From an uncultured Prevotellaceae bacterium (GTDB lineage Bacteria > Bacteroidota > Bacteroidia > Bacteroidales > Bacteroidaceae), in the NCBI GenBank assembly GCA_902782305.1, contig CACZMV010000026.1, forward strand, positions 1-33,617: 33,617 bases of DNA, in the 5' to 3' direction. This document shows, one piece after another, positions 2,904 through 31,622 of the stretch; the stretch's first letter is position 1; each line of letters begins with the position of its first letter. The notes under the pieces are model-generated. The model was not told the DNA's origin. It was given only the letters and a program-made list of their open reading frames with translations, and ran no database searches. The translations under genes were made by a program, and so were the position numbers.

Positions 2904-2938
2904 TAGTTTCAGGATTCAAGTTTCAGGATTCAAGAATC
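2904..2938. repeat. Heptad tract, five units, touching a stop codon
   Basis: In minus orientation five 7-mers run from 2938 down to 2904: GATTCTT, GAATCCT, GAAACTT, GAATCCT and GAAACTA. The first directly follows the TAA stop of the upstream hypothetical gene. The tract fills more than half of the gap before hppA. TGA recurs across unit junctions, so the tract contains stops in more than one frame. Confidence 0.85.
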
Positions 2939-3754
2939 TTACTCGTCAGCGATGAAATCGGAGAGCGATTCAGCGTCCTCGTCAGGATCGGCAGCGATAT
3001 CGAACGTGGTACGATAGTTGTTCTCGTTGATTTCGTCGTCGTTGGGATCGTCGATTTCAACATCGTCCTCATCGGGGCTGTTGTAATCGTCAACGATTTC
3101 AACGTCTGCATCCTCGTCGTCCTCGTCGCCAAAGCCCTTAGGTTCGTCGAAGCGCATGCGTGGCTTGATGGTTTCAGGTTTCAACTTGGCAAAGATGGCC
3201 TCTACCCAAGAACCTTTTGCCACCTCGAGCACCTCGTAGCCGTCGGCAACCTTCTTCTCGTACATGCCGCCCTTCTTGTGCAGACGCTCTTTGGGAAGGG
3301 TAGTGGTGGAAATGTCGAAACCACTCTCAATGATGTCCTGAATGGACTGCGACAGTGAGTCCCATCCGCCGCCGAAATTGCGGTCTAGTACCTCGATGAG
3401 CTTGGCAGCCGTGATGTGGCGAATGTTCTCGTAAGTAAGGTCGGTAACGCGAACAATGGGGCGCTTCTTGATGGCCCACGTAATCTTCTGGTCTTCGCTA
3501 AACTTAATACTGCCTACTTTATAGCCCTGCTTGGCATATTTCTCGAGAACGGGCTTGCTGTCGTCTTTAACATCTTCTATCATAAAAGCGCTCCTGATGA
3601 TGTCGGCATAGTGGCGCAGATTGTCTTTCAATTCTGCATCCTTCTCTGCTGCATCGAGCATGCGAAAGATGTCGTTTTCCTGTACGTCCCATACGCTGCT
3701 CTTTGTCAGCGACTTCAGACTAAGTGCTTTGTTGCTTGTTGTTTCTTTTGCCAT
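2939..3754 (-). CDS. Conserved-type hypothetical protein with strongly acidic C-terminus
   Basis: I do not recognise a named family. From the ATG at 3754 the product has 271 residues. The first ~200 look like a folded, soluble, mixed alpha/beta region with several lysines. The last ~65 residues are almost entirely Asp, Glu and Asn (for example GDEDDEDADVEIVDD) and are probably disordered. There is no signal peptide or membrane segment. A longer in-frame start at 3874 would add a 40-residue extension that runs across the promoter, so I reject it. The acidic tail could bind a basic partner or mimic nucleic acid; that is inference only. It is divergent from rarA and upstream of hppA. Confidence 0.8.
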   Translation of the reverse strand: MAKETTSNKALSLKSLTKSSVWDVQENDIFRMLDAAEKDAELKDNLRHYADIIRSAFMIEDVKDDSKPVLEKYAKQGYKVGSIKFSEDQKITWAIKKRPIVRVTDLTYENIRHITAAKLIEVLDRNFGGGWDSLSQSIQDIIESGFDISTTTLPKERLHKKGGMYEKKVADGYEVLEVAKGSWVEAIFAKLKPETIKPRMRFDEPKGFGDEDDEDADVEIVDDYNSPDEDDVEIDDPNDDEINENNYRTTFDIAADPDEDAESLSDFIADE

Positions 3755-3787
3755 AGTGTAATTGTATATTTTTTGTTTATTTGCTTG

Positions 3788-3795
3788 CAAATGTA
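3788..3795 (-). promoter_or_regulatory. -7 element for the acidic hypothetical gene / hppA
   Basis: TACATTTG on the minus strand matches TANNTTTG and lies about 35 nt upstream of the ATG at 3754. No convincing -33 TTTG was found at the usual spacing. Confidence 0.45.
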
Positions 3796-3803
3796 CGAAA
3801 AAA

Positions 3804-3831
3804 AGTGTAAAGTGTATAGAGAAAAGAGAAA
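3804..3831. repeat. Heptad tract between divergent genes
   Basis: Four 7-mers in plus orientation: AGTGTAA, AGTGTAT, AGAGAAA and AGAGAAA. This is the one tract that does not touch a stop codon; it sits upstream of the minus-strand promoter. Confidence 0.7.
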
Positions 3832-3889
3832 AATTTGCTGTAGAACTAAAAAAATATGCATTCCAGATGATCAATTCTTATTTATTTTG

Positions 3890-3897
3890 TACCTTTG
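3890..3897 (+). promoter_or_regulatory. -7 element of rarA
   Basis: TACCTTTG fits TANNTTTG and ends 10 nt before the rarA ATG. The mRNA leader would be very short or almost absent. The -33 element is unclear. Confidence 0.5.
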
Positions 3898-3907
3898 CAT
3901 CTGAATT

Positions 3908-5188
3908 ATGGCTGAACCGTTAGCAGAAAGATTACGTCCGCGCTCGCTCGACGATTACATTGGGCAGAAGCATTTGGTAGGCGAGGGTGCCGTGCTGCGT
4001 AAGATGATAGACGCAGGACGCATCTCCTCTTTTATATTATGGGGACCTCCAGGAGTGGGCAAGACTACGCTGGCGCAGATTATTGCCAATAAATTGCAGA
4101 CGCAGTTCTATACGCTATCGGCCGTGACGAGCGGGGTAAAGGATGTGCGCGAGGTGATAGAAAGGGCGCAGAAGGGTAGATTCTTCAACGAGGCTTCGCC
4201 CATACTGTTTATCGATGAAATCCACCGTTTTTCCAAATCGCAGCAGGATTCGCTGTTGGGGGCTGTAGAAAAAGGTATCGTGACGCTGATAGGTGCTACG
4301 ACGGAGAATCCATCGTTTGAGGTGATTCGTCCGTTGTTGTCGCGCTGTCAATTGTATGTGCTGAAATCGCTGGAAAAGGAAGATTTGCAGGAACTGCTTC
4401 AGCGCGCCATTACGAAAGACATCATCTTAAAGGAACGCAAGATAGAGCTGAAAGAGACATCGGCCATGATGCGGTATAGCGGAGGTGACGCTCGTAAGTT
4501 ATTAAATATCTTGGAATTAGTAGTTGAGAGTTCAAGCAATGATGAGATTGTAATCACTGATTCTATCGTGGAAGAATGCTTGCAGCAGAACCCACTGGCA
4601 TACGACAAAGACGGCGAGATGCACTACGACATCATATCGGCATTCATCAAGTCGATTCGTGGCTCAGACCCTGATGCTGCACTCTACTGGATGGCCCGTA
4701 TGATTGAGGGTGGGGAGGACCCACAGTTCATAGCGCGCAGACTGGTTATATCGGCTGCAGAGGATATTGGATTGGCAAATCCCAATGCATTGTTGCTGGC
4801 GAATGCCGCTTTCGATGCTGTGATGAAGATAGGATGGCCAGAAGGTCGCATACCATTGGCAGAATGTGCCGTCTATCTGGCCACATCGCCCAAGAGTAAT
4901 TCAGCATATCTGGGCATAGGGGCCGCGTTGGAATTGGTGCAAAAGATGGGCAACCAGCCTGTGCCGTTGCACCTGCGCAATGCGCCAACATCGTTGATGA
5001 AAGACCTGGGATATAGCGACGGATATAAATATCCACACGATTTCATCGGCCATTTTACGCCCCAGCAATATATGCCTGATGCGCTGCAAGAAGAGCGTCT
5101 GTGGCACGCCCAGCATTCGCCGGCAGAAGAGAAATTGTATGAACGAATGGTGAATTATTGGGGGAAACGCTTCGCTAGTGAAAAGTGA
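3908..5188 (+). CDS. rarA: Replication-associated recombination protein A (AAA+ ATPase)
   Basis: The 426-residue cytoplasmic ATPase belongs to the RarA/MgsA/WRNIP1 family, which acts at stalled replication forks. Walker A is GPPGVGKT (residues 46-53) and Walker B is the FIDEIHRF region (about 101-108), followed by the ATTENPSFE sensor-1 segment. The C-terminal half carries the family tetramerisation region, with RGSDPDAALYWMARM and GAALELVQKMG. Length is normal. The ATG at 3908 is preceded by a promoter and begins the typical MAEPLAERLRP. The last three residues and stop (SEK then TGA) are encoded within an AGTGAAA-type heptad tract, so the tract supplies the natural stop. Confidence 0.97.
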   Translation: MAEPLAERLRPRSLDDYIGQKHLVGEGAVLRKMIDAGRISSFILWGPPGVGKTTLAQIIANKLQTQFYTLSAVTSGVKDVREVIERAQKGRFFNEASPILFIDEIHRFSKSQQDSLLGAVEKGIVTLIGATTENPSFEVIRPLLSRCQLYVLKSLEKEDLQELLQRAITKDIILKERKIELKETSAMMRYSGGDARKLLNILELVVESSSNDEIVITDSIVEECLQQNPLAYDKDGEMHYDIISAFIKSIRGSDPDAALYWMARMIEGGEDPQFIARRLVISAAEDIGLANPNALLLANAAFDAVMKIGWPEGRIPLAECAVYLATSPKSNSAYLGIGAALELVQKMGNQPVPLHLRNAPTSLMKDLGYSDGYKYPHDFIGHFTPQQYMPDALQEERLWHAQHSPAEEKLYERMVNYWGKRFASEK

Positions 5189-5281
5189 AGGTCGCGATTA
5201 AGTGAGAACAGAGCTAAGCTTGCTTAAGCTATGTCGAACGTGAGCGAGCTCGATGTGAAACATCAATAGTGAAAAGTGGAA
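5177..5281. repeat. rarA-TRIC spacer: heptad ends, 12-bp direct repeats and palindromic core
   Basis: The 12-mer TAGTGAAAAGTG occurs exactly at 5176-5187 and 5267-5278, bracketing 79 bp. The left copy contains the rarA stop; the right copy leads directly into the start of the next gene. Inside are AGCTAAGC / GCTTAAGCT (5212-5230, one bulged base) and GATGT-gaa-ACATC (5252-5264). The 10-mer AAGCTTGCTT (5216-5225) recurs at 33379-33388. The arrangement resembles a REP-like palindromic element. Confidence 0.65.
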
Positions 5282-5899
5282 ATGGAGTACGAGAATATCA
5301 TACAGCAGATTATTGAGTTTTTAGGTACGTTTGCCTTTGCCATATCAGGTATCAGACATGCAGCTGCAAAGCATTTCGATTGGTTTGGCGGCTATGTGTG
5401 TGGTATTGCGGTAGCCATTGGTGGTGGTACCATTCGCGACGTGATGTTGGGAGTAACACCATTCTGGATGACCAATCCGTTTTATATGATCTGTACGGCG
5501 TTGGCGCTGATTTTTGTTATTATTTTTACAAAACACATGGAGGGTTTACGCAACACATGGTTTGTGTTCGATACTTTGGGATTGGCGCTGTTTACGATAG
5601 CAGGAATCCAGAAGTCGCTACTCTTCGGACAACCTTATTGGGTGGCCATCATCATGGGCTGTATCACGGGTTCAGCAGGTGGTGTCATCCGCGATATATT
5701 ATTAAATAATGTACCTGTAATCTTCCATAAGGAAATCTATGCAATGGCGGCAGTTCTTGGAGGTATAACTTATTGGTTACTAGATATTCTTATGGTTCCC
5801 ATTGAAGCAACAGTTATAGCGTCTTTCATGGTAACTTGCTTGATTAGATTCCTGGCTGTTCGCTATCATCTGTCGCTTCCAACGCTAAAAGACGAGTAG
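5282..5899 (+). CDS. TRIC/YadS-family (UPF0126) membrane channel protein
   Basis: The 205-residue integral membrane protein contains two homologous three-helix repeats. Each carries the family glycine-rich turn, GGGTIRDV near residues 50-57 and GGVIRDIL in the second half. E. coli YadS and the structurally studied prokaryotic TRIC channels share this plan and length. Those proteins form trimers permeable to monovalent cations, especially K+; the physiological role in bacteria is unclear. I place the start at the ATG at 5282. An in-frame GTG at 5276 would add two residues that lie in the heptad tract. The gene follows rarA on the same strand and ends in a bidirectional hairpin. Confidence 0.9.
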   Translation: MEYENIIQQIIEFLGTFAFAISGIRHAAAKHFDWFGGYVCGIAVAIGGGTIRDVMLGVTPFWMTNPFYMICTALALIFVIIFTKHMEGLRNTWFVFDTLGLALFTIAGIQKSLLFGQPYWVAIIMGCITGSAGGVIRDILLNNVPVIFHKEIYAMAAVLGGITYWLLDILMVPIEATVIASFMVTCLIRFLAVRYHLSLPTLKDE

Positions 5900-5903
5900 G
5901 GGA

Positions 5904-5934
5904 AGCGAGTAGGGGAGATACCCCCCTACTTCGC
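5904..5934. terminator. Bidirectional hairpin between convergent genes
   Basis: GCGAGTAGGGG pairs with CCCCCTACTTCGC around a short AGATA-type loop. It lies just past the TRIC-type gene stop and overlaps the last codons and stop (5926-5928) of the convergent alcohol dehydrogenase gene. There is no long T run on either side, so terminator efficiency is uncertain. Confidence 0.55.
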
Positions 5935-7107
5935 CAACTTATAAATGTCGCGCATAGCCTTAGCGTCCAACACCTCCATAGCACCTATGTTAATGGTGCC
6001 TCCGCGAGAACATTTGTCAACTAAAACGTCGATTTCATCGTCAGTAATCTCACGTCCTATCAATTCGTGGATATTGATAGGCATACCAATCTTGTGATAG
6101 AAATCCTCAATAGCACGAATACCTTTTTCAGCGGTTTCATCGGGATGCGCAAAATCGTTGTCAACGCCCATTACATTCACAGCAAACTGGACAAAACGGC
6201 TCAAATGACGGTCTTTGACATAACGAGCCCATGAAGGCCACAAAGCGGCCAATCCAGCGCCATGAGTAACGCCGAATAGGGCGCTCAGCTCGTGTTCGAG
6301 CTTATGGGTGGCAAAATCTTTCTCCATTCCCAATTCCGTTAAATCGTTATGTGACAAGGAGCTAGCCCACATAATTTGGGCACGATTGCGATAATCGTCA
6401 GGATGCAGTAAAACCACCTGTACAGCGTCTTTAACGGTGCGCAGTAGGGCCTCAGAAATGGCATCCGTCAGCGTCATGTCCTCATATTTAGTGAAATAGC
6501 GCTCCATGGTGTGCATCATGATATCAGTAGCACCTGCAGCAGTCTGATAAGCAGGCAAGGTGTAGGTGCGCTCAGGATTCATGACAGCAAACTTACAACG
6601 GCATAAATCGCTGTTAACACCGCGTTTCAGTAAGCCTTCGTCCTTGGTAATAACGGTGCTGGACGACATTTCTGAACCAGCAGCAGGAATTGTGAGCACA
6701 GCTCCAACAGGCAGGCATTTTTCAGGAGTTTTTCCACACCAGAAGTCCCATACGTCGCCATCGTAAGGAACACCATAGCCAATGGCCTTAGAAGAGTCGA
6801 TAACGCTTCCGCCACCAACGGCTAGAATAAAATCGACGTTTTTCTGACGACAAATCTCAATGCCTTCGTAAACCTTAGATAAAAGTGGATTAGGCACAAC
6901 GCCACCAAGTTCTGTAAACGGAATGCCTGCATCATTGAGTTGCTGACGAACCACAGACAACAAGCCTGAGCGTTCGGCTGATCCGCCACCATAATGAACA
7001 AGAACATGGGTTGCACCTTGTGATTTTACCAGCTGGCCAATCTTAGATTCAGCCTCACGTCCAAAAACGACGCGAGTTGGTGCATAGAAATTAAAATCCT
7101 TAATCAT
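5926..7107 (-). CDS. Iron-containing alcohol dehydrogenase, YqhD/BDH-like
   Basis: The 393-residue cytoplasmic enzyme of the group III alcohol dehydrogenase family is likely an NAD(P)H-dependent reductase of aldehydes. The cofactor-binding segments are HYGGGSAERSG (38-48) and LAVGGGSVIDS (95-105). Four metal ligands can be placed by comparison with E. coli YqhD: Asp195, His199, His268 and His282, with the expected 4 and 14 residue spacings. The ATG at 7107 (MIKDFNFYAP) is chosen because an in-frame ATG at 7137 would lie inside the promoter. Substrate cannot be inferred from sequence. It is monocistronic and convergent with the TRIC-type gene. Confidence 0.95.
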   Translation of the reverse strand: MIKDFNFYAPTRVVFGREAESKIGQLVKSQGATHVLVHYGGGSAERSGLLSVVRQQLNDAGIPFTELGGVVPNPLLSKVYEGIEICRQKNVDFILAVGGGSVIDSSKAIGYGVPYDGDVWDFWCGKTPEKCLPVGAVLTIPAAGSEMSSSTVITKDEGLLKRGVNSDLCRCKFAVMNPERTYTLPAYQTAAGATDIMMHTMERYFTKYEDMTLTDAISEALLRTVKDAVQVVLLHPDDYRNRAQIMWASSLSHNDLTELGMEKDFATHKLEHELSALFGVTHGAGLAALWPSWARYVKDRHLSRFVQFAVNVMGVDNDFAHPDETAEKGIRAIEDFYHKIGMPINIHELIGREITDDEIDVLVDKCSRGGTINIGAMEVLDAKAMRDIYKLAK

Positions 7108-7134
7108 AACCTTATAGTTTTTGCTAATTTTCTG

Positions 7135-7167
7135 CAAAAATACAATTTTAATTCCAAAATCAGCAAA
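7135..7167 (-). promoter_or_regulatory. Promoter of the alcohol dehydrogenase gene
   Basis: On the minus strand, TATTTTTG (complement of 7135-7142) fits the -7 consensus. TTTG (complement of 7164-7167) lies 21 nt upstream as the -33 element. Confidence 0.65.
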
Positions 7168-7257
7168 AATGAGTAGGGAAATATTGAATACAATATACTC
7201 TATTTATCATAATACGTATTATTTTGGAAAACAAATATATATTTATAAGGTGTAAGA

Positions 7258-7289
7258 TTTGGCAGTTTCAGAATAAATACGTATCTTTG
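7258..7289 (+). promoter_or_regulatory. Promoter of purU and the downstream run
   Basis: TTTG (7258-7261) and TATCTTTG (7282-7289) are separated by 20 nt, an excellent Bacteroidetes promoter. It gives a leader of roughly 35 nt before the ATG at 7332. No other promoter of this quality was seen in front of the following his genes. Confidence 0.75.
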
Positions 7290-7331
7290 CACCTAATTTT
7301 AAAAGGATTGAAACAAAAGAAAGATTTAGAA

Positions 7332-8195
7332 ATGAAACCAACAGCAATTTTGCTTCTGCACTGTCCTGATCAGCAAGGCATTATATCAGAAGTAACTAGA
7401 TTTATTACGGATAACAAAGGTAACATTGTATACCTTGACCAGTACGTGGACAAACAAGACGGAATGTTCTTCATGCGAATTGAATGGGAACTGGACGGAT
7501 TCTTGATCCCACGCGATAAGCTTTATGACTATATATCAACGCTTTATGCCCAGCGTTATCAGATGAAATTCAGCCTCTATTATAGTGACAAACGTCCCAG
7601 AATGGCGATTTTCGTATCGAAAATGAGCCATTGTCTGTACGACCTGCTGGCTCGCTGGAAAGCTGGAGAATTTAACTGCGATATTCCGTGTATTGTATCT
7701 AATCACGAAGATTTGCGCTATGTTGCTGAGCAGTTTGGCATTCCTTTTTACGTGTGGAGCATCAAAAAAGACCATTCTAACAAACAGGAAGTGGAACAAG
7801 CTGAAATGGAGCTGCTGAAGAAGGAAGACGTCTCGTTTATCGTACTGGCCCGTTATATGCAAATCATTTCAGACGAAATGATTGCTGCTTTTCCGCATCA
7901 TATCATCAACATCCACCACTCGTTCTTGCCCGCTTTTGTGGGCGCAAAGCCCTACCATCAGGCTTGGGAACGTGGCGTGAAGATTATCGGAGCCACCAGC
8001 CACTATGTAACTGCAGAACTGGATGCTGGTCCGATTATTGAGCAAGATGTTACGCGCATCAGTCATAAGGACACACCAGAAAGTCTGGTGCTGAAAGGAA
8101 AAGATTTGGAGAAAATTGTGCTTTCTCACGCTGTTTCCAAGCATATTCAGCGTAAGATATTGACTTACAAGAACAAAACGATTATTTTCTCGTAA
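7332..8195 (+). CDS. purU: Formyltetrahydrofolate deformylase
   Basis: The 287-residue cytosolic enzyme hydrolyses 10-formyl-THF to formate and THF, balancing one-carbon pools and supplying formate for purine synthesis. An N-terminal ACT domain (about 1-80, starting MKPTAILLLHCPDQQG) is followed by a formyltransferase domain. The catalytic triad is visible: Asn193 and His195 in INIHHSFLP, and Asp231 in ELDAGPI, with the same 38-residue spacing as in glycinamide ribonucleotide transformylase. The ATG at 7332 is chosen because an in-frame start at 7224 lies upstream of the promoter. It is 37 nt upstream of hisH on the same strand. Histidine synthesis yields AICAR, whose formylation uses the same cofactor, so the linkage makes metabolic sense. 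Confidence 0.96.
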   Translation: MKPTAILLLHCPDQQGIISEVTRFITDNKGNIVYLDQYVDKQDGMFFMRIEWELDGFLIPRDKLYDYISTLYAQRYQMKFSLYYSDKRPRMAIFVSKMSHCLYDLLARWKAGEFNCDIPCIVSNHEDLRYVAEQFGIPFYVWSIKKDHSNKQEVEQAEMELLKKEDVSFIVLARYMQIISDEMIAAFPHHIINIHHSFLPAFVGAKPYHQAWERGVKIIGATSHYVTAELDAGPIIEQDVTRISHKDTPESLVLKGKDLEKIVLSHAVSKHIQRKILTYKNKTIIFS

Positions 8196-8232
8196 AACGA
8201 ACACGAATTTCACAAATTGAATGGATTGTTTT

Positions 8233-8859
8233 ATGAACGTAGCCATCGTAAAATATAACGCAGGAAACATCTACTCAGTGGTTAACGCGCTGCGCAGATT
8301 GGGCGTAGAGCCTTTGCTGACGGACGATGCCGAGCAATTGCAGAAGGCCGACCGTGTGCTGTTTCCTGGGCAAGGCGAAGCTCGTGGAGCTATGGAATAT
8401 CTGAAGGCACGGCGTTTGGACGAGGTTATCAAGAACCTGAAACAGCCCGTTTTCGGTATCTGTGTGGGCCAACAACTGCTCTGCAAGCACTCTGAGGAAG
8501 GAGATGTGGACTGTATCGGCATCTTCGACGCAGAAGTGAAGCGCTTCTCCCCTACTCGTCACGAAGATAAAGTGCCCTGCATGGGATGGAACGCTTTAGA
8601 TGTAAGATGGAAGAAGGAAGATGGAAGAGAGATAGGCGATGTAAAATGTAGCATTTTCGAGGGTTTAGGCGATAATCCTTACGTTTATTTCGTACATTCC
8701 TATTACGTTCCTTTGTGCGAAGACACTGCAGCCATCGCTGATTATATACAGCCTTACTCAGCTGCCTTACAGAAAGACAACTTTTATGCCTGCCAATTCC
8801 ACCCAGAGAAAAGTGGACGCGTGGGTGAACAAATCATCAAGAATTTCTTAGCATTATGA
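8233..8859 (+). CDS. hisH: Imidazole glycerol phosphate synthase, glutaminase subunit
   Basis: HisH hydrolyses glutamine and passes ammonia to HisF, the fifth step of histidine synthesis. It is a class I glutamine amidotransferase. The nucleophile is Cys77 in FGICVGQQLL and the other triad residues are His190 and Glu192 in CQFHPEKSG. The start at 8233 (MNVAIVKYNAGN) matches family N-termini; an in-frame ATG at 8221 would add four residues. The product has 208 residues, against about 196 for E. coli. The excess is explained by a 13-codon heptad-tract insertion at residues 123-135, between two in-frame GATGTAA repeats. Removing it gives WNALDVKCSIFEGL, a typical HisH sequence. The stop overlaps the hisA start. 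Confidence 0.96.
   Translation: MNVAIVKYNAGNIYSVVNALRRLGVEPLLTDDAEQLQKADRVLFPGQGEARGAMEYLKARRLDEVIKNLKQPVFGICVGQQLLCKHSEEGDVDCIGIFDAEVKRFSPTRHEDKVPCMGWNALDVRWKKEDGREIGDVKCSIFEGLGDNPYVYFVHSYYVPLCEDTAAIADYIQPYSAALQKDNFYACQFHPEKSGRVGEQIIKNFLAL
8599..8644. repeat. Heptad tract inside hisH with 7-bp flanking direct repeats
   Basis: GATGTAA occurs at 8599-8605 and 8638-8644, exactly 39 nt apart. Between them lie four 7-mers at 8602-8629: GTAAGAT, GGAAGAA, GGAAGAT and GGAAGAG. The insertion is a multiple of three and has no stop in the hisH frame. The same unit order, one GTAAGA-type unit then GGAAGA-type units, occurs at 31602-31622 on the minus strand. Confidence 0.8.
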
Positions 8860-9578
8860 TAGAACTGATACCTGCCATAGACATCATTGAAGGACAGTGT
8901 GTACGACTGACCAAGGGCGACTATGACCAAAAGACCGTTTACGGCAATCCGCTGGAAATGGCGCAGGAGTTTGAGCGAATTGGTTTTCGCAGACTTCATA
9001 TGGTTGACCTGGATGGTGCCAAGTCGAAGCATATTGTCAATGACGAGGTGCTGAACCGTATCACGAAAGCAACCAACTTGATTGTTGACTTTGGTGGAGG
9101 AATCAAGACCGATGAAGACATTCGCAAGGCTTTTGACAACGGTGCCTCGATGGTAACGGTTGGTTCGATAGCTGTGACTCAGCCAGAGCTGTTTCTGTCG
9201 TGGGTTGAGCAATATGGCGCTGAACGATTGATTCTTGGCGCAGATGTGAGGAATGGGAAAATCAGCATTAACGGATGGAAGGAAGACTCTACGGAAGACC
9301 TCCTACCCTTCCTGCGTCGCTACATTGATGCTGGTGTAAGAAATGTGCTATGCACAGAAATTTCAAAGGACGGAACGCTGCAGGGGCCTGCCATTGAACT
9401 CTATCAGCGTGTGATGAAGGAATACCTCAAGTTGCATCTCATTGCCAGCGGAGGCGTTTCTTCCATTGAAGATATCAAGTCGCTCGATGCTGCGGGAATA
9501 CCCGCCGTGGTGTTCGGAAAGGCTATCTATGAAGGAAAAATTAATTTGCAAGAACTATGGGACTGGCAAAACGCATAA
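8856..9578 (+). CDS. hisA: ProFAR isomerase
   Basis: The 240-residue (beta/alpha)8 barrel isomerises ProFAR to PRFAR, the fourth step of histidine synthesis. It begins [18 protein letters not shown] with the conserved catalytic Asp8. The second catalytic Asp is in [10 protein letters not shown], and the phosphate-binding segments DFGGGIK and ASGGVSS are present. Length matches the family. The ATG overlaps the hisH stop (ATGA at 8856-8859), and the 3' end overlaps hisF by 22 nt, so translation is coupled. Confidence 0.98.
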
Positions 9579-10315
9579 TACCCTGTCTGGATGTGAAGGA
9601 TGGTGAAACCGTAAAGGGCACCAACTTCATCAATCTTCGCTCTGCTGGCGATCCTGTAGAGTTGGGAAAGACCTATAGCGAGCAAGGTGCTGACGAGCTT
9701 TGCTTCCTTGACATTACAGCCTCTTTCGAAGGTCGTAAGACCTTTACAGAGATGGTGACTCGAGTGGCAAAGGAGATCAACATTCCGTTTACCGTTGGTG
9801 GTGGTATCAACGAACTAAAAGACGTGGAGCGACTGCTTTATGCTGGTGCCGACAAGGTTAGCGTGAATAGTGCTGCCATTCGTCGTCCAGAACTTATTAA
9901 TGAAATCACCACCCGTTTCGGCTCGCAGGTTTGTGTGGTTGCCATAGATGCCCGTCTGGATGAAGACGGCTGGCATTGTTACCTAAAAGGTGGACGCGAG
10001 CGCACAGAGCGCGGACTCTTTGAATGGGCTCGTGAGGCACAGGAACGTGGTGCTGGCGAGATTCTCTTTACGTCGATGAATCACGATGGAACAAAACAAG
10101 GATTTGCCAATGAGGCACTACGCGAATTGTCTGATACCTTGAGCATCCCCATTATCGCTAGTGGTGGCGCAGGATGTAAGGAACACTTCCGCGATGTCTT
10201 TGTGGAAGGGCATGCGGATGCAGCCTTAGCAGCCTCTGTGTTCCATTTTGGCGAGATTCCTGTGCCAGAACTCAAGCAGTATTTACACAATGAAGGAATA
10301 AACGTTAGACTATGA
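9557..10315 (+). CDS. hisF: Imidazole glycerol phosphate synthase, cyclase subunit
   Basis: The 252-residue (beta/alpha)8 barrel combines PRFAR with ammonia from HisH to give imidazole glycerol phosphate and AICAR. It begins [16 protein letters not shown] with the catalytic Asp near residue 12, and has the second catalytic Asp in VVAIDARLD. The loop KGTNF and the phosphate-binding GGGIN and ASGGAG segments are also present. The start lies inside hisA, and the stop overlaps the hisIE start as ATGA. Length is normal. Confidence 0.98.
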
Positions 10316-10959
10316 AGATAGATTTTGAGAAAATGGGTGGTCTTGTACCTGCTATCATACAAGACGCTGTGACACAGAAGGTGCTGATGCTGGGCTTCAT
10401 GAATGAAGAGGCCTACCAGAAAACGCTGGACACCAAGCACGTCACCTTCTGGAGTCGTACACGAAATACGCTCTGGACAAAGGGTGAGACATCAGGAAAC
10501 TTTCTGAATCTGGTGGATATCAAAGTGGACTGCGATAATGACACACTGCTCATTCAGGCTCATCCCGATGGTCCCACCTGCCATACAGGGACAGACACCT
10601 GCTGGGGAGAAGAGAATCATGCCAATCCCCTACTCTTCTTAACGGAATTGCAGGACTTTATCAATCGCAGGAAAGAAGAGATGCCAGAAGGTTCGTACAC
10701 CACGAAACTCTTCAAGGAAGGCATCAATAAGATAGCCCAGAAAGTGGGCGAAGAAGCACTGGAGACTGTGATAGAAGCCACCAATGGCACTAGCGACCAT
10801 CTGGTCTATGAGGCCAGCGATTTGCTGTATCACCTTCTGGTGATGTTGACAGAGAAAGGTCTTCGTATCGAGGAAGTGGCTCAGGAGTTGCAAAAGCGCC
10901 ACGACCCGAATTGGGACAAGAAGCGCCGTGAAGCCAAAGCTGCAGGCACAATGAAATAA
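10312..10959 (+). CDS. hisIE: Bifunctional phosphoribosyl-AMP cyclohydrolase / phosphoribosyl-ATP pyrophosphatase
   Basis: The 215-residue fusion performs the second and third steps of histidine synthesis. The HisI domain (about 1-105) carries the metal-binding DCDND (73-77) and [10 protein letters not shown] (89-98) motifs. The HisE domain follows, with [22 protein letters not shown], an all-alpha MazG-like region. Fusion of these two is common in Bacteroidetes and enterobacteria. It is the last his gene here; hisG, hisD, hisC and hisB are absent from the window. A heptad tract starts right after its stop. Confidence 0.97.
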
Positions 10960-10994
10960 TAAATCGTAAATTGTAAATCGTCAAATTGTAAATT
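10960..10994. repeat. Heptad tract after hisIE
   Basis: GTAAATT-type units lie at 10966-10972, 10973-10979 and 10988-10994, with an 8-nt variant GTCAAATT at 10980-10987. TAAATC precedes them right after the hisIE stop (10957-10959). The 29 nt from 10966 match 27364-27392 at 27 positions, including the 8-nt third unit. Confidence 0.85.
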
Positions 10995-10999
10995 TCAAG

Positions 11000-11761: not shown

Positions 11762-11773
11762 CGCGTTCGCTAG

Positions 11774-11801
11774 TTGATAATTGATAGTTGATAATAAATA
11801 A
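11774..11801. repeat. Heptad tract after ftsE
   Basis: The units are TTGATAA, TTGATAG, TTGATAA and TAAATAA, beginning 12 nt past the ftsE stop. Each carries stop trinucleotides, and because 7 is not a multiple of 3 they fall in all frames. The preceding TTCGCTAGT (11766-11774) also precedes the tract at the rarA 3' end (5171-5179). Confidence 0.8.
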
Positions 11802-11816
11802 AAACAAGATAAGACA

Positions 11817-22361: not shown

Positions 22362-22391
22362 CAGACTAGAATAACTTAAAACTATAAAAAT

Positions 22392-23723: not shown

Positions 23724-23724
23724 T

Positions 23725-24948: not shown

Positions 24949-24956
24949 ATATTTTG

Positions 24957-24964
24957 TAACTTTG
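24957..24964 (+). promoter_or_regulatory. -7 element of the lpxD operon
   Basis: TAACTTTG lies 27 nt before the lpxD ATG. A second match, TACCTTTG (24922-24929), lies inside the end of the HD gene. No TTTG at 19-21 nt spacing was found, so the -33 element is weak. Confidence 0.5.
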
Positions 24965-24991
24965 CAGCGTTTATTAAAACTCTGATTTTAT

Positions 24992-25978
24992 ATGATGCAA
25001 TTTACAGCCAAGCAAATAGCCGATTTTATCGGTGGTCGTGTGGAAGGCAATGAGAATGCTACCGTCAGCACGTTTGCAAAGATTGAAGAAGGTAAGGAAG
25101 GATCTATCACTTTCCTCTCAAATCCTAAATATACTCCGTATATCTATGAGACAAAAGCCAGTATCGTGCTCATCAATGAGGACGTTCAACTGGAGAAGCC
25201 CGTCAGCGCTACGCTCATTCGCGTGAAGAACGCCTATGAGTGTGTGGCCAAGCTGTTGCAGATGTATGCAGCTTCGCTTCCCAAGAAGACGGGCATCCAT
25301 CCATTGGCTTTCGTTTCTGAATCTGCCGAGATTGGCAAGGATGTTTATATCGGTCCGTTCACTTTTGTGGGTGAAGGCGTGAAGATTGGCGATGGTTCTA
25401 TCATCAATCCCAACGTCACCATCTACGATGGTTGTCAGATTGGCAAGAATGTAACCATCCATGCCGGTAGCGTGATTGGTGCCGACGGCTTTGGTTTCGC
25501 ACCTAACACCGAAGGTTACGAGAAGATTCCTCAGTTGGGTATTGTGATTATCGAAGATAATGTGGAGATTGGTGCCAATACCTGTGTCGACCGCTCTACC
25601 ATGGGACAGACCGTTATCCATAAGGGTGTGAAGCTCGACAACCTTATCCAGGTGGCCCATAACTGCGAAATCGGCGAGAACACCGTCATGTCTGCTCAGG
25701 TCGGCATGGCTGGTTCTACCAAGATTGGTTCATGGTGTATGGTTGGCGGACAGGCTGGTTTTGCAGGTCATATCCACGTGGCTGACAAGACGATGGTGGG
25801 CGCTCAATGTGGCGTTATCAACAACACCAAGGGCAATGGCGAGAATCTCATTGGTTCACCCGCTATGGATCCCAAAGACTTTTTCAAAGCAAAGGCTCTC
25901 TATCGTCGTTTGCCCGACATGTATAAGGAAATCAGCGCTCTGCGCAAGGAAATAGAAGAACTCAAGAAAAAACAATAA
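24992..25978 (+). CDS. lpxD: UDP-3-O-acyl-glucosamine N-acyltransferase
   Basis: The 328-residue cytosolic trimeric enzyme adds the second 3-hydroxyacyl chain in lipid A synthesis. The N-terminal uridine-binding domain (about 1-100) precedes a left-handed beta helix of hexapeptide repeats (about 105-280) and a helical C-terminus. The catalytic His is His223 in [10 protein letters not shown]. An ATG also stands at 24995, so the N-terminus is uncertain by one residue. It opens an operon: its stop overlaps the lpxC-fabZ start by one base (TAATG). Confidence 0.97.
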
Positions 25979-27360
25979 TGAAACAGAAGACACTTAAAGG
26001 CAGTTTCTCTCTCTTCGGAAAAGGACTGCATACGGGTTTAAATCTGACAGTAACATTTAATCCTGCACCTGAGAATACTGGTTATAAAATCAAGCGCATC
26101 GACTTAGAGGGAGAACCCGTTATCGATGCTATTGCAGAGAATGTAGTTGACACCCAGCGTGGTACAGTACTTGGAAAGGGCGATGCTCGTGTATCTACGG
26201 TAGAACACGGTCTTGCAGCTCTCTATGCTCTGGGTGTCGACAACTGTATGATTCAGGTAAACGGTCCTGAGTTCCCCATCCTCGATGGTTCAGCCATCCA
26301 GTATGTTGAGAAAATCAAGGAAGTGGGTATCGAGGAACAGAATGCCCCTAAGGACTGGTACATCATCCGCAAGAAGATTGAGGTGAAAGACGATAAGACA
26401 GGTTCTTGCATCACCATTCTTCCCGACGATGAGTTCTCGCTGACTGCCATGTGCTCCTTCGATTCGAAGATTATCAATTCTCAGTTTGCTACCCTCGACA
26501 ATATCCAGCAGTTTTCTACTGAGATAGCAGCTGCTCGCACCTTTGTCTTCGTTCGCGACATCGAACCCCTGTTGCAGGCCAACCTCATCAAGGGTGGCGA
26601 CATGGACAATGCCATTGTCATCTACGAGCGTCAGACCACCCAAGAGCGTCTGGACATGTTGGCAGACATGTTGGGCGTGGAGCACAGAGATGCTACAGAA
26701 CTGGGATATATCCAGCACAAGCCTTTGGTTTGGGAGAATGAATGTACCCGTCACAAGCTGTTGGATGTGATTGGCGATATGGCGCTCATCGGCAAACCCA
26801 TCAAGGGTCGCATCATTGCCACTCGTCCTGGTCATACCATTAATAATAAGTTTGCCCGTCAGATGCGCAAGGAGATTCGCAAGCACGAAATCCAGGCTCC
26901 TATCTACGATCCCAATGAGGAACCCGTAATGGACGTGAACCGTATTCGCGAGTTGCTTCCCCATCGCTATCCTATGCAGTTGGTTGACAAGGTTATCTCT
27001 TTGGGAGCCAATACGATTGTGGGTATCAAGAATGTCACTTCCAACGAGCCATTCTTCCAGGGGCACTTCCCCGAAGAGCCCGTTATGCCCGGCGTTCTTC
27101 AGGTAGAGGCTATGGCTCAATGTGGTGGTCTGCTCATTCTTAACACGTTGGAAGAACCAGAGCGTTGGTCAACCTATTTCATGAAGATTGACGATGTGAA
27201 GTTCCGTCAGAAAGTGGTTCCAGGCGACACCTTGATTTTCAAGGTCGACCTGCTGGCTCCCGTTCGTCACGGCATCTCTTCGATGAAGGGCTACATCTTT
27301 GTGGGCGACCATGTAGTGGCCGAAGCCACATTCACCGCACAGATTGTGAAGAATAAATAA
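25978..27360 (+). CDS. lpxC-fabZ: Bifunctional LpxC deacetylase / FabZ dehydratase
   Basis: The 460-residue fusion is known from Bacteroidetes. LpxC (about 1-300) removes the N-acetyl group from UDP-3-O-acyl-GlcNAc, the committed lipid A step. Its zinc ligands are His77 (VEHGLAAL), His259 and Asp263 (TRHKLLDVIGD), and His286 (RPGHTIN) is the catalytic His. FabZ (about 315-460) dehydrates 3-hydroxyacyl-ACP in fatty acid elongation. It shows LLPHRYPMQLVD and the hot-dog active site GHFPEEPVMPG with His363, plus Glu377. Both domains look intact. Both enzymes compete for the 3-hydroxyacyl-ACP pool, so fusion may balance phospholipid against lipid A. Confidence 0.97.
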   Translation: MKQKTLKGSFSLFGKGLHTGLNLTVTFNPAPENTGYKIKRIDLEGEPVIDAIAENVVDTQRGTVLGKGDARVSTVEHGLAALYALGVDNCMIQVNGPEFPILDGSAIQYVEKIKEVGIEEQNAPKDWYIIRKKIEVKDDKTGSCITILPDDEFSLTAMCSFDSKIINSQFATLDNIQQFSTEIAAARTFVFVRDIEPLLQANLIKGGDMDNAIVIYERQTTQERLDMLADMLGVEHRDATELGYIQHKPLVWENECTRHKLLDVIGDMALIGKPIKGRIIATRPGHTINNKFARQMRKEIRKHEIQAPIYDPNEEPVMDVNRIRELLPHRYPMQLVDKVISLGANTIVGIKNVTSNEPFFQGHFPEEPVMPGVLQVEAMAQCGGLLILNTLEEPERWSTYFMKIDDVKFRQKVVPGDTLIFKVDLLAPVRHGISSMKGYIFVGDHVVAEATFTAQIVKNK

Positions 27361-27363
27361 ATT

Positions 27364-27392
27364 GTAAATTGTAAATTGTCAAATTGTAAATG
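27364..27392. repeat. Heptad tract joining lpxC-fabZ stop to lpxA start
   Basis: GTAAATT units lie at 27364-27370 and 27371-27377, the 8-nt GTCAAATT at 27378-27385, and GTAAATG at 27386-27392. The ATG of that last unit is the lpxA start codon. The block is nearly identical to 10966-10994. Confidence 0.85.
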
Positions 27393-28160
27393 AATAACAT
27401 TCATCCTTTAGCAGTTGTAGACCCCGAGGCCAAGCTTGGCGACGGTAACGTAATCGGTCCCTTCTGCGTGATTGACAAGAATGTCGTTATAGGCGATAAT
27501 AATAAGTTATTAAATAATGTAACCCTCCACTTTGGTGCTCGTATTGGCAACAACAACGAATTCTTCCCCGGTGCCTCTATCTCCACAAAGCCACAGGATT
27601 TGAAATTCCAGGGCGAGGAGACCACTTGCGAGATTGGCGACAACAACTCCATTCGCGAGAATGTTACCATCAGTCGTGGTACGGCATCAAAGGGCAAGAC
27701 GGTTATTGGCAACGGCAATCTGCTGATGGAGAATATGCACATCGGTCACGACTGCGTCATCGGTAATGGATGCATCATCGGCAATTCCACGAAGTTTGCT
27801 GGCGAAGTGATTGTCGACGACAATGCCATTATCTCAGCTTGTTGCCTGTTCCATCAGTTCCTGCATGTGGGTGGTTACATCATGTTCCAAGGTGGCAGTC
27901 GCACCTCGCAGGACATTCCTCCCTACGTCATTGCTGGCAAGGAGCCCATCCGCTATGCAGGTGTTAACCTCATCGGTCTGCGTCGTCGCGGATTCCCCAA
28001 CGAGGTCATCGACGCTATTCACGATGCCTATCGCATCATCTATGCCAAGGGCATCCTGAAAGATGGTGTTGCTGAGGCTCGCGCCAAGTATCCTGACTGC
28101 AAGGAGGTGGAATACATCTGCTCGTTCATTGAAAATTCGAAGCGCGGAGTCATCCGTTGA
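27390..28160 (+). CDS. lpxA: UDP-N-acetylglucosamine O-acyltransferase
   Basis: The 256-residue cytosolic trimer transfers a 3-hydroxyacyl chain to UDP-GlcNAc, the first step of lipid A synthesis. The left-handed beta helix covers about residues 1-185, starting [20 protein letters not shown]. The catalytic base is His120 in [10 protein letters not shown], corresponding to His125 in E. coli. The C-terminal helical part has the [11 protein letters not shown] segment. Length is normal. The start codon is formed by the last unit of a heptad tract, and another tract begins 2 nt after the stop. Confidence 0.97.
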
Positions 28161-28162
28161 TA

Positions 28163-28197
28163 GTTTACAGTTTACGGTTTACAGTATACGGTTTAAG
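28163..28197. repeat. Heptad tract joining lpxA stop to miaA start
   Basis: Five units fill the gap: GTTTACA (28163), GTTTACG (28170), GTTTACA (28177), GTATACG (28184) and GTTTAAG (28191-28197). The lpxA stop ends at 28160 and the TTG start of miaA is at 28198. This is the cleanest tract in the window. Confidence 0.9.
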
Positions 28198-29094
28198 TTG
28201 AACAAACTCATCGTCATCACGGGCCCAACCGCTGTAGGCAAAACGGCACTAACCCTTGAGATTGCCAAGCACTACGGCATACCAATCATCAATGCTGACT
28301 CACGTCAGATCTACAAGGAACTGAGGATTGGCACGGCCTCCCCGACGGTTGAGCAGATGCAGCAGGTTTACCACTATTTCGTAGGTACCAAGAGCATCAG
28401 CGACTATTACAATGCTTCGATGTACGAACAGGAAGTCATGCAGTTGCTGCAATCGTTATTCACTACATCTCCTATCCAAATTCTTTCGGGAGGAAGCATG
28501 ATGTATATTGATGCGGTATGCAATGGCATCGACGATATTCCGACCGTTCGCGATGATATTCGCAATGAGATGAAACGTCGCTATGAGGAAGAAGGATTGG
28601 AGAGCCTTTGTGAAGACCTTCGTCGCCTTGACCCCGAGCACTACGAGGTGGTAGACCGTCAGAACCATCGTCGCGTCATCCATGCGCTTGAGATTTGTTA
28701 CCAGACGGGCAAGACCTATACCTCTTTCCGTACACAAGCCAAGAAGCAACGTCCTTTCCAGATTATCAAAATCGGACTGAATCGTGATCGCGACGAACTC
28801 TATCAACGCATCAACCAGCGTGTTGACGACATGATGGCAGAAGGTCTTCTGGATGAAGCAAAGGCGATGCTTCCATATAGAGAAGCGAATGCCTTAAACA
28901 CCGTAGGCTACAAAGAACTGTTCGACTACTTCGATGGACGATGGCCCCTCGCTGAAGCGGTAGAGCGCATCAAGGGCAACACCCGTCGTTATGCTCGCAA
29001 ACAACTCACTTGGTATAAGCGTGATGAACAAGTTACATGGTTTCATCCCCATCAACAACAAGAAATTCTGAATTTAATTTCGCACTATGAATAA
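28198..29094 (+). CDS. miaA: tRNA dimethylallyltransferase
   Basis: The 298-residue cytosolic enzyme isopentenylates A37 of tRNAs that read UNN codons. The P-loop is [10 protein letters not shown] (7-16), followed by [12 protein letters not shown] and the TASPTVEQ segment. The start is taken as TTG at 28198 ([12 protein letters not shown]), which matches family N-termini. The frame is open upstream to an ATG at 28063 inside lpxA, giving 343 residues, but that extension is translated heptad tract plus lpxA in another frame and is improbable. The last 8 nt overlap the penicillin-binding protein gene. Confidence 0.95.
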
Positions 29095-31567
29095 TTACTT
29101 AGAAATGGTTGGCACATTCTTCCAGAAAGGATGGCAATGGTATAAGGGACTCTATCAGGGACGTCGCTGGTACGTCAAGATTGGTGCAGTTATCGCTTCG
29201 CTCGTCGTGGCATTCCTGCTCTATCTCATCATGGTCGACATCAACTTCCTGTGGCTTTTCGGTAAGTCGCCCTCCATGAGCGATGTCAAGAACACCCACC
29301 CTGCCGAGGCCTCGCAGATCTATAGTGCCGACGGCAAGGTGATTGGCAAGTTCTTCAGCGAGAACCGCATGCCCGTGGACTACGACGATGTCAGCCCGAA
29401 GTTCTGGGAAGCCCTTATCGACACCGAGGACGAGCGTTTCTATCGCCATCATGGCATCGACTATCAGGCTTTTGGAGCAGCTTTGAAAGACTATGTCTTG
29501 CATCGTGATGCCCGTGGTGCTTCCACCATCACCCAGCAGTTGGCCAAGAACCTCTTCCGTGTCCGCACGCAATATTCAACAGGACTATTGGGCAATATCC
29601 CTGGCTTGAAGATGCTCATCATGAAGAGCAAGGAGTGGATTACCGCCTATAAGTTGGAATGGTATTTCGATAAGAACGAGATATTGACCATGTATGCCAA
29701 TACCGTTGACTTCGGTTCCAATGCCTTTGGCATCAAGACCGCTGCCAAGACCTATTTCGGCACTACTCCCAAGCATCTCACCACCGACCAGTCTGCCATT
29801 CTGGTAGGACTGCTCAAGGCCACCACCTATTATAATCCGCGCATCAATCCGAAGAATTCCCTCAGTCGTCGCAATGTGGTGCTCGACAACATGCTTCGCC
29901 ACGGTCATCTCACACCTGAGGAGTGCAAAGCCCTTCAGCAGAAGGAAATCAAGCTGGACTATAGTGTGGAGGATGCCTATGACGGCAATGCCAACTACTT
30001 CCGTGAAGCGGTGGCCGACTGGATGAAGTCGTGGTGTAAGGAGTATTATGGCGACGACCGTGCCTATGCTTATTATACCGAAGGTTTGAAGATTCACACC
30101 ACCCTCGACAGTCGCATGCAGCATTATGCCGAGGAAGCTGCCATCAAACAGATGAAGCAGGTGCAGAAGACCTTCAATCAGCATTGGGGCAATGTCAATC
30201 CATGGCAAGACGAACACCATGTAGAAATTCCCCATTTCATCGAGGATTTGGCTAAGAAGACACCTTATTATAAATTGCTGAACCAGAAGTACGACGGCAA
30301 CCAAGACTCCATTTCCTATTATCTCAATCTTCCCCATAAGGTGAAACTCTTCGATTATGAGAATGGATATATCGAGAAAGAGATGTCGTCTATGGACAGC
30401 ATCCGTTATATGGAGCACTTCATGCATTGTGGCTTCGTGGCCATCGAACCTCAGACCGGACATGTCAAGGCCTGGGTGGGCGACATCGACTTCAAGACGT
30501 GGAAATACGACAAGGTAACGGCCATGCGCCAGCCTGGCTCTACCTTCAAGCTCTTCGTCTATTCCGAGGCCATGAACCAAGGCATCACGCCTTGCGACAC
30601 CCGCAAGGACGAGTACTTCTCAATGAAAGTCATGGACCATGACAAGGAGGTCACGTGGGCTCCCACCAATGCTGATGGCCGTTTCTCGGGTGCCAACATC
30701 ACCCTGAAGCAAGCCTTCGCCATGAGTATCAACAGCGTGGCCGTTCGTCTGGGTCAGGAAGTAGGCATCGACCGCATTGTCCAGACGGCTCACGAGATGG
30801 GTATCAAGTCCAAGCTCGACCCCACTCCTTCGTTGACGCTTGGTGCCAGCGATGTCAATCTGCTCGAATTGGTAGGCTCCTATTGTACGCCCGTCAATAA
30901 TGGTAAGGCCATCGACCCCGTATTGGTAACCCGTATCGAGGATCGCGACGGCAACGTCATCTATGAAGCCAATCCCGAAGAGCGCCAAGCCCTCTCTCCC
31001 AAGAGCGCTTTCTATGTTCAACAGCTGTTGATGGGAGGCATGAGTGGCACATCCTCTCGTCTGCGTGGTTTCGTGGGCGATGCTAATAACGATACCGACT
31101 TCGGTGGCAAGACCGGCACGTCCAACAATCACTCCGACGCCTGGTTTGTGGGCACCACGCCCCGTCTGGTTTGTGGCGCCTGGGTGGGTGGCGAATACCG
31201 TTGCATCCACTTCCGCACCGGTCAGCTCGGACAAGGCAACCGCACCGCCCTACCCATCTGTGGCTACTTCCTAGGCTCCGTCCTTGCCGACAAGCAGTTC
31301 AAGCACTATCGCGTCAAGTTCAACAAGCCCGAGGGCATCGGCGATGCCATCGATTATAACTGTGGTGGCTATTTCAAGGCACCTGCTGATTCCGACTCGC
31401 TGGCCGTTGATAGCCTGGCTGCTAAGCCCGAAATGGAAATGGTGCTCGATGAATTCGGCAACGAGGTGGTTCGTCCTAAGGAACATCACGACAATGTGAA
31501 CACGCAATCTTCGCCCAATGCTCCGCAGGCTGCTGAGGAACCCAAACAAACCAAAATCGAAGATTAA
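29087..31567 (+). CDS. Class A penicillin-binding protein 1A
   Basis: The 826-residue bifunctional cell-wall synthase has a short cytoplasmic N-terminus, one membrane helix (about 32-50) and two periplasmic domains. The GT51 transglycosylase domain has its catalytic Glu114 in [12 protein letters not shown], plus [12 protein letters not shown]. The transpeptidase domain has SxxK at Ser485-Lys488 (GSTFK), SxN at Ser547-Asn549, and KTG at 675-677. The C-terminus ends in an acidic, Pro/Ala-rich linker. It is the counterpart of E. coli mrcA/ponA. It overlaps miaA by 8 nt and closes the lpx operon with a strong terminator. Confidence 0.96.
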
Positions 31568-31604
31568 AAAAAAGGTAAGGGGTGAAAACCTCTTACCTTT
31601 TTTC
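31567..31604. terminator. Bidirectional terminator between PBP1A and the C69 peptidase
   Basis: AAAAGGTAAG pairs with CTTACCTTTT around a GGTGAAAACC-type loop. A-rich and T-rich flanks lie on either side, so it can stop transcription from both directions. Confidence 0.85.
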
Positions 31605-31622
31605 TTCCTTCTTCCTTCTTAC
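31602..31622. repeat. Heptad tract at the C69 peptidase stop
   Basis: In minus orientation the units are GTAAGAA (31622-31616), GGAAGAA (31615-31609) and GGAAGAA (31608-31602). The peptidase stop codon TAA is inside the first unit. Unit order and sequence match the tract inside hisH. Confidence 0.8.

Follow-up and report, generated by a model that had tools for sequence, protein, structure and literature searches.

Tandem repeats with units of seven nucleotides (heptamers) have long been known from cyanobacteria such as Calothrix (cited in PMC4692102). Among the closest described counterparts of the heptamer tracts treated here, which are dispersed through the genome of an uncultured Prevotellaceae bacterium (assembly GCA_902782305.1), are the direct repeats of TAACTGA in marine Beggiatoaceae, cyanobacteria, and five Bacteroidetes, with other heptamers adjoining in three Bacteroidetes (MacGregor 2015, PMC4679880). 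In the tRNA-Leu intron of Nostoc, heptanucleotide repeats of the P6b stem pair as a hairpin (PMC3488679), and repeats of GGGAATC in Xanthomonas and of GGGGA(C/T)T in Nostoc have been studied as G-quadruplexes (Rehm 2015, PMC4692102). Other small dispersed repeats invite comparison by their organization or effect, namely the repetitive extragenic palindromic (REP) sequences, for which a GTAG or CGTC tag at the palindrome is a criterion (PMC3733652), and the enterobacterial elements RU-1 and RU-2, which supply hydrophobic or signal-peptide sequence to genes (PMC2759123).

The window, i.e., the whole stretch of DNA analyzed, is an entire contig (C26; CACZMV010000026.1) of 33,617 nucleotides from an assembly of 2.94 Mb in 68 contigs (88% complete, 2.8% contaminated). 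A sequence-only reading had described degenerate heptamer tracts in ten stretches of the window, mostly at stop codons and in gaps between genes. These tracts were recovered by a tandem repeat search and by independent periodicity scoring, and the analysis was extended to the remainder of the genome and to other species; L and G numbers designate loci and genomes. Gene names given without a Pfam scan are our assumption.

Heptamer tracts in the genome

The heptamer tracts are real, and period 7 is specific in this genome. The window and 40 further stretches of the genome (833,617 bases in total) contain 108 tracts, defined as period-7 segments with a score of at least 11. Other periods yield 0, 0, and 9 segments (periods 4–6) or 8, 7, 4, 8, 6, and 5 segments (periods 8–13), and the multiples 14 and 21 yield 84 and 58. 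The first 433,617 bases hold 58 tracts versus 0–1 in five block shuffles. Tract length is sharply distributed, with 4.x units in 62 of the 108 tracts, 3.x in 21, and 5.x in 11; the peak lies at 28–34 nt, with the short end of the distribution trimmed by the score threshold.

A loose unit pattern, Y-T-M-A-Y-T-N or, on the other (purine) strand, N-A-R-T-K-A-R, is common to 60 tracts aligned by register and strand (fit of 277 vs. 205–215 in ten column-permuted nulls), although units such as AGATGGA and CCATCAG fit it poorly. The commonest units are AAATGAG, AAGTGAA, TAGTGAA, AAGTTCA, and TAATTCA. Some of these families have common flanks. The left flank of AAGTTCA (16 nt, AATCAT or alike) has an identity of 0.431 versus 0.262, a value reached by none of 500 random sets, and the AAGTTCA flank recurs in the hisA-hisF gap of another species (L052). 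Sharing of the right flank of AAATGAG is likewise reached by 0 of 500 random sets, and that of AAGTGAA by 1 of 500 on each side. Individual flanking sequences in the sample recur beside tracts: AATTTGCTNCCGC occurs five times, always adjoining a scored tract; CGCTTCGCTAGTG occurs ten times, seven of them adjoining tracts; and the same is true for two of three occurrences of AATCATAAAGTTC and seven of eight occurrences of AAATGAAGAAATG. The small palindromes located 5' of TAGTGAA differ in sequence (by eye).

Placement of the tracts

The tracts are located at gene junctions, in protein loops, and directly 5' of promoter-like −7 boxes. By crude gene calls, noncoding sequence accounts for most of the length in 61 of the 108 tracts and coding sequence in the other 47, with densities of 1.11 per kb noncoding and 0.060 per kb coding sequence. 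Inside crude open reading frames (ORFs; the longest of 80 amino acids or more, with miscalled starts) are 35 tracts, a count that includes tracts located 5' of the likely true start (e.g., at 3802 in the window and 19995 in L001). The proposal of the sequence-only reading that these are selfish repeats tolerated only in gaps is therefore too narrow in its second part; of the options it offered, selfish repeats fit best.

The median length of co-directional gaps is 45.5 where a tract is present and 14 where there is none. In such gaps, the purine strand is the sense strand of 38 out of 50 tracts (p 0.0003), with strand assigned by a unit model trained on part of the same data. The stop codon of the upstream gene lies inside 20 of the 38 sense tracts versus 2 of the 12 antisense tracts, a visible consequence of 7 being 1 modulo 3, by which, as had been correctly pointed out, a stop in the unit falls in all three frames. 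Proximity to stop codons is not enriched: it was seen in 28 of the 50 tracts and is expected for 26.4 ± 2.7 under random placement (671 of 2000 randomizations reach the observed value), which rules out a targeting of stop codons. The claimed position at stops holds for seven of the ten stretches of the window, which overlap a stop codon or lie within about 12 nt of one, but not as an enrichment over chance.

Of the 108 tracts, 17 have the promoter-like sequence CAAANNTA, which reads as the −7 box TANNTTTG on the opposite strand, at a distance of up to 25 nt on the 5' side of their purine strand; the other three arrangements are found in 6, 2, and 4 tracts, and 4.2% of random noncoding 25-mers contain the sequence. 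The consensus used for this box is what we take to be that of −7 boxes. Overall, the picture is that of tracts extending right up to whatever is constrained. Among pairs of tracts in database contigs (see below), a −7-like box is located within 60 nt of 8 out of 49 pairs, in seven of them on both sides. Four loci from different bins (L164, L165, L174, and L181) are related, apparently divergent promoter regions with tract pairs between −7-like boxes (by eye).

Inverted pairs

Tracts occur both as solo copies and as inverted pairs with the purine arm first. In 18 cases, two neighboring tracts are separated by less than 250 nt. Of these pairs, 11 are inverted and have the purine arm on the left, none is inverted in the reversed order, and in 7 both tracts have the same orientation. 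Eight of the 11 inverted pairs are AAATGAG-type and three combine different families. The AAATGAG arms of unlinked sites are alike over 46–66 nt at 84–94%.

The same form is present elsewhere. A search of 60 genomes of the genus with the purine-first pattern yielded seven loci in three genomes, and the reversed pattern, even one base laxer, yielded none in the same genomes. Inspection by eye revealed the inverted form with its own units in other species (L101, L104, L112, L113, and L125) and an inverted pair with AGGTGGC arms in L044. The purU-hisH gap of another species (L042; 104 nt) contains an apparent inverted pair of TAAATTG-type arms (by eye). A scan of database contigs that covered the purine-first form returned 48 stretches with 49 pairs, 33 of the stretches being labeled Prevotella, Prevotellaceae, Rikenellaceae, or Bacteroidales. 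The other 15 stretches are labeled Hymenobacter (4), Caldilineaceae (3), one bin (3), and Chitinophagaceae, Saprospiraceae, Nostoc, Treponema, and Fibrobacteres (1 each); many of the stretches belong to metagenome bins, and single taxon assignments may be wrong. A contig labeled Nostoc sp. NMS7 (L172) has AATGAGT/ACTCATT inverted pairs of the same form.

In one other bin, four pairs (L141, L154, L166, and L185) have a visible common core (by eye). For the present genome, a fixed mobile unit that includes the core is unsupported, as none of the matches listed, all of at least 45 nt, falls into the interior of a pair. Folding z-scores of the cores were set aside because the cores still contained residual heptamers. 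Another possibility considered was that an arm is copied in place from its partner; the arms of a pair are more alike than other arms when species are mixed (0.871 vs. 0.817, p 1.6e-6), but this difference vanished within six groups (24 pairs), one of which pools several Hymenobacter genomes.

Tracts in coding regions and apparent export signals

In-frame tracts are located in genes confirmed by Pfam, namely rsmF, prmC, valS, mutS2, the gene of an ECF sigma factor, and, in the window, hisH. The hisH tract lies in a loop that has other insertions in other species (20 proteins, including that of the window). Hits to rsmF were present in 57 genomes, and an alignment of 24 of these has three loops with species-variable peptides that look repeat-coded, in several cases with a purine-type peptide ahead of a pyrimidine-type peptide (both by eye, from the proteins). 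At the DNA level, G000 and G040 agree at 33 of 33 positions of the left rsmF arm, although the whole aligned stretch is only 76% identical; the right arm is absent from G040, where another palindromic repeat is present. The sole unit of the left arm in which TGA would be in frame, as derived from the coordinates, has TTA instead in both species, which is a single case. The rsmF gene of G040 (L076) contains two copies of a different palindromic repeat that includes GGGACTGTCCC, in loops that hold heptamers in G000.

Because 7 and 3 have no common factor, a tract in purine sense gives stops in every frame, and a reversed tract encodes one hydrophobic peptide in every frame; repeated CTCATTT encodes LISHFSF in all of them. 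This genome has eight AAATGAG-type pairs, and in four of them the core of an apparent signal peptide is formed by the second arm (N-termini by reading). The first start codon is located between the arms in L007 (...FLIPHSSFLIC-AQ, in a GH106 gene) and in L010 (...TFLISHFSFLIC-P, in a phospholipase-D-family gene). It is located in the first arm, with a further ATG between the arms, in L016 (no Pfam hit; ...FLTSHSSFLIC-G) and L020. These four pairs seem to supply signal peptides. A solo tract likewise gives an apparent signal peptide to an outer-membrane beta-barrel gene (position 34453 of the joined stretch L010; L064), and similar leaders occur among the 49 database pairs in L162 and L186 (near-identical genes), L175, and L179 (labeled Treponema). 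Apparently, some of the repeats now belong to functional genes, among other things as signals for protein export.

Comparison between species

The seven junctions around the his operon were compared in 20 species (135 comparisons). A period-7 score of at least 8 was reached in 14 cases, and the same score at periods 5, 6, 8, and 9 in 5, 1, 1, and 4. The sequence-only reading had called for a comparison of orthologous gaps between strains; compared between species, the gaps do differ, and orthologous sites hold different units. The gap between hisIE and the downstream gene, an ABC ATPase that we take to be ftsE-like, reaches a score of 8 in 4 of the 20 species. Its unit is TAAATTG in the window and AGTGAAN in both L033 and L043, whereas L044 has AATTGAT/AATGGAT. 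The tract of this gap in the window matches more than 40 dispersed sites among those listed, three in G000 and the others in further genomes of the genus. In 11 of 19 species, hisH overlaps with hisA, while L044 has a tract of 44 nt that spans stop and start. In L050 and L052, other short palindromes (GCCCTGAAAGGGC and CCCTTAAGGG) fill the hisF-hisIE, hisIE-ftsE, and lysA-side junctions of the same operon.

The number of overlapping matches to the unit pattern ranges from 0 to 363 per genome among 60 genomes of the genus, 13 of which have no match to either the pattern or its reversed control. In a sample of 296 genomes of the phylum, the pattern is matched in 99, and in many of these, the control matches equally often. 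A single universal unit grammar is ruled out, since other species favor other units. G049 (L114, L117, and L118) has long tracts of up to 11 units with a different dictionary (ATTGAAG/ATTGAAA).

Origin of the tracts

The tracts are probably REP-like in size and habit, that is, short dispersed and largely selfish repeats of about four to five heptamers (28–34 nt) each; we assign this reading a probability of roughly 0.56. New copies would arise from other copies, by transposition or short-patch conversion, more than by local slippage, and purifying selection would then spare them only at sites that tolerate nearly any sequence. Because the genome is 93% coding, these sites are short gaps and linkers. 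Through the frame relation described above, some copies would have become stop codons or, apparently, signals for export; a role of this kind is secondary and not the reason for the presence of the tracts.

Several observations weigh against a dispersal of copies. The flanks of TAGTGAA are weak (reached by 35 and 52 of 500 random sets), those of TAATTCA are weak or absent (387 and 43 of 500), and one side each of AAATGAG (407 of 500) and AAGTTCA (426 of 500) shows no sharing. As to the features of miniature inverted-repeat transposable elements (MITEs), namely terminal inverted repeats with a shared interior and target-site duplications, the DNA between the arms of the eight pairs of this genome has no match among those listed (all of at least 45 nt), and the common core of four pairs in another genome was seen by eye. 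No mobilizer was identified, and neither an empty site at nucleotide resolution nor a target duplication was found, the aligned relative having another repeat at the site. The unit grammar could also be shaped by selection for stop codons and A-rich leaders, and the greater length of gaps with tracts may partly reflect room for a tract. Period 7 is also less dominant in other species: 20 genus members, each represented by one region of 20 kb (378,268 bases in total), have 17 segments at period 7 versus 6 each at periods 8 and 9, three pattern-rich species yield 8, 7, and 6 segments at period 7 and 7, 8, and 5 at another period, and the reversed control is commoner than the pattern in several genus members (G007, G027, and G049). 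This weaker excess elsewhere makes the present genome exceptionally rich in period-7 tracts. Finally, within genomes, the arms of the same pair are no more alike than those of different pairs (551 of 2000 permutations), a result that speaks against the copying of an arm from its partner in place and agrees with an origin of each arm by slippage.

Such an origin is unlikely but the most probable of the alternatives. The tracts would be long simple sequence repeats formed in place, with slippage favoring 7-nt units from local seeds and selection making the units alike. In the majority of genomes studied, such repeats are reported to be most often heptamers, for which polymerase slippage has been proposed (Mrazek 2007, cited in PMC4679880 and PMC4692102), and long regular arrays are present in some species (e.g., G209, G351, and G049). 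However, slippage does not readily account for the common flanks of some families, the likeness of arms over 46–66 nt at unlinked sites, the sharp length mode, the fixed polarity of the pairs, and the single unit dictionary in this genome. For the polarity, a telomere-like addition at broken ends was considered and not adopted.

It is very unlikely that the tracts are functional signals of operon gaps, providing an all-frame stop, a site for re-initiation, or an A-rich leader. The prevalence of the purine sense and the upstream stops in 20 of the 38 sense tracts would suit such a role, but a sense bias is predicted by selection alone, and stops are not enriched over random placement. Moreover, 121 of the 135 orthologous junctions do not reach a period-7 score of 8, 13 of the 60 genomes match neither the pattern nor its control, and tracts are found also in coding loops and beside promoter-like boxes. 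The position of the tracts can be accounted for without the clean-up terminators and re-initiation spacers suggested by the sequence-only reading.

The arrangement of solo copies and inverted doublets is that of REP sequences and of REPINs (REP doublets; PMC3116915), which points to Y1 transposases of the REP-associated tyrosine transposase (RAYT) type as possible mobilizers. The present genome has one clear, RAYT-like Y1 gene and one match below the cut-off. Neither locus (3,357 and 2,092 bases) contains a period-7 segment with a score of at least 8. A 20-kb stretch surrounding the clear gene does contain scored tracts, but those closest to the gene lie at a distance of about 5 kb. Twenty Y1 stretches of other species (119,367 bases) contain only four tracts. 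Between genomes, there is a weak association: those with a Y1_Tnp hit above the cut-off have more matches (median 69 vs. 22, p 0.009; 60 genomes), counted as overlapping matches to pattern and control and uncorrected for relatedness or completeness, and Y1 is present in 19 of 27 rich versus 4 of 13 match-free genomes (p 0.038). Reverse transcriptases (RVT_1) have no association with the counts in these genomes (p 0.64 and 0.30). With Y1 genes in four of the empty genomes, none in eight of the rich ones, and no association at the loci themselves, mobilization of REPIN-like elements by RAYT is highly improbable and was not adopted. In L053 (475–2262), the one clear Y1 transposase gene of this genome is located directly 3' of a phage-type gene, which is presumably BRO-like.

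A bolder and rather doubtful reading would be an enzyme system that writes purine-first heptamer arrays into the genomes of Bacteroidota and perhaps, with related units, into those of Nostoc, Treponema, Caldilineaceae, and Fibrobacteres. Because all frames of an array read as the same peptide, such a system would continually provide ready-made signals for export, and also linkers.

Tracts of the window

Sixty shuffles of the window gave whole-window maxima with a mean of 7.5, a 95th percentile of 9, and a highest value of 11 at period 7, and of 7.65, 10, and 11 at period 14; period 15 was scored without shuffles. Six of the ten stretches exceed all shuffles, namely those at 2904 (score of 6 at period 7 and 16 at period 14), 3804 (12), 8602 (15), 27364 (15), 28163 (12 at period 7 and 16 at period 14), and 31602 (15). 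Those at 10966 (9 at period 7, 11 at period 15) and 11774 (10 at period 7, 11 at period 14) are only in the upper tail. Those at 5177–5190 and 5268–5281 (scores of 6 and 5), taken alone, are not above the shuffles, though both are similar to the AGTGAAN family present elsewhere in the genome.

The stretch at 2904–2938 is a tandem of a 14-mer comprising two heptamers, AGTTTCAGGATTCA, in 2.1 copies, detected by tandem repeat search and shuffles. It is placed between the stop of a gene without Pfam hit (2939–3754, minus strand) and the start of an H+-pyrophosphatase gene (692–2878, minus strand; Pfam). An AGTGTAA/AGAGAAA tract (3802–3832, plus strand) occupies the gap 5' of a rarA-like AAA gene, between two divergent starts rather than at a stop, and adjoins the promoter-like CAAATGTA, presumably a −7 box on the opposite strand. 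The stop of the rarA-like gene (5186–5188) is included in 5168–5190 (plus strand), which consists of a small palindrome, CGCTTCGCT, followed by the two units of AGTGAAAAGTGAA. Two copies of AGTGAAA (5268–5282, plus strand) are also no stop-codon tract; they run into the ATG at 5282 of a gene of the glycine transporter family (Pfam). A third exception is the AGATGGA/AGAAGGA tract at 8598–8628 (plus strand; 8602–8629 in the sequence-only reading), which lies in frame inside hisH (glutamine amidotransferase class-I family, Pfam).

Downstream of hisIE, a TAAATTG-family tract with one 8-nt step (GTCAAATTGTAAAT; 10958–10994, plus strand) precedes the ABC ATPase gene. A small palindrome, GCGTTCGC, and three copies of TTGATAA (11763–11795, plus strand) separate the ftsE-like gene from the next gene, which we take to be lysC; the exact TTGATAA triple has no match anywhere in the assembly. 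Another TAAATTG-family tract (27358–27392, plus strand) fills the lpxC-lpxA gap from the stop codon through to the next ATG, and an AGTTTAC tract (28162–28197, plus strand) fills the lpxA-miaA gap as far as the TTG start at 28198. Between converging genes, a GGAAGAA tract (31602–31626, minus strand) overlaps the nearby stop, which is that of the minus-strand gene 31619–33268; a terminator-like hairpin with A and T tracts (31570–31602, by eye) abuts it. Near the contig end (317–374), a 12-nt tandem, TACTGCACCCAT, in 4.8 copies with 97% matches is unrelated to the heptamers.

Comparison with known repeats

The heptamers of this genome provide a test bed for the prevalence of 7-nt units among bacterial simple repeats. 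Since members of the genus range from no match to several hundred overlapping matches, the responsible factor might emerge by comparison. The small repeats alter the loops of conserved proteins (orthologs of rsmF and hisH were compared) and give rise to apparent signal peptides, and such loops and leaders matter for annotation and for comparative work on Prevotella-like bacteria.

The sequence-only reading knew of no account of heptamer repeats in Bacteroidales. TAACTGA repeats are documented for five Bacteroidetes, including Paludibacter (PMC4679880). Beyond this report, none of the matches listed in searches for Prevotella, Bacteroides, and Bacteroidetes treats heptamer repeats by its title, with subscription journals mostly outside the search. 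The tracts share with the TAACTGA repeats that they are direct repeats of heptamers at gene junctions, with stops in all frames and no clear mechanism (PMC4679880). The TAACTGA genome, however, has one dominant unit, its near-variants are rarely or never repeated, and only 1 of 170 sets contains an indirect repeat (PMC4679880), whereas there are many units and regular inverted pairs here.

Tandem 7-nt units beyond chance and mostly outside genes, which characterize the short tandemly repeated repetitive (STRR) sequences and long simple sequence repeats (LSSR), are found here, and the degenerate heptamers resemble those of cyanobacteria. The tracts differ from the cyanobacterial repeats in their several families, some with flanks, in their narrow length, in their sites at promoter edges and in protein loops, and in the apparent signal peptides. 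The repeats of Xanthomonas and Nostoc are likewise intergenic heptamers, some of them inverted and variable among related species (PMC4692102); they are G-rich, which the common units here are not. RU-1 and RU-2 are alike in giving signal-peptide sequence to genes but are unrelated elements of 103–168 bp that use particular reading frames (PMC2759123), whereas the same peptide results from all frames here. With REP and REPIN sequences, the tracts share their size and the occurrence as solo copies and inverted doublets (PMC3116915); they differ in that no RAYT gene was found beside the copies in this genome and that their arms are tandem heptamers. The tracts are thus heptamer repeats with a REP-like organization, a variation on heptamer repeats that are already known.

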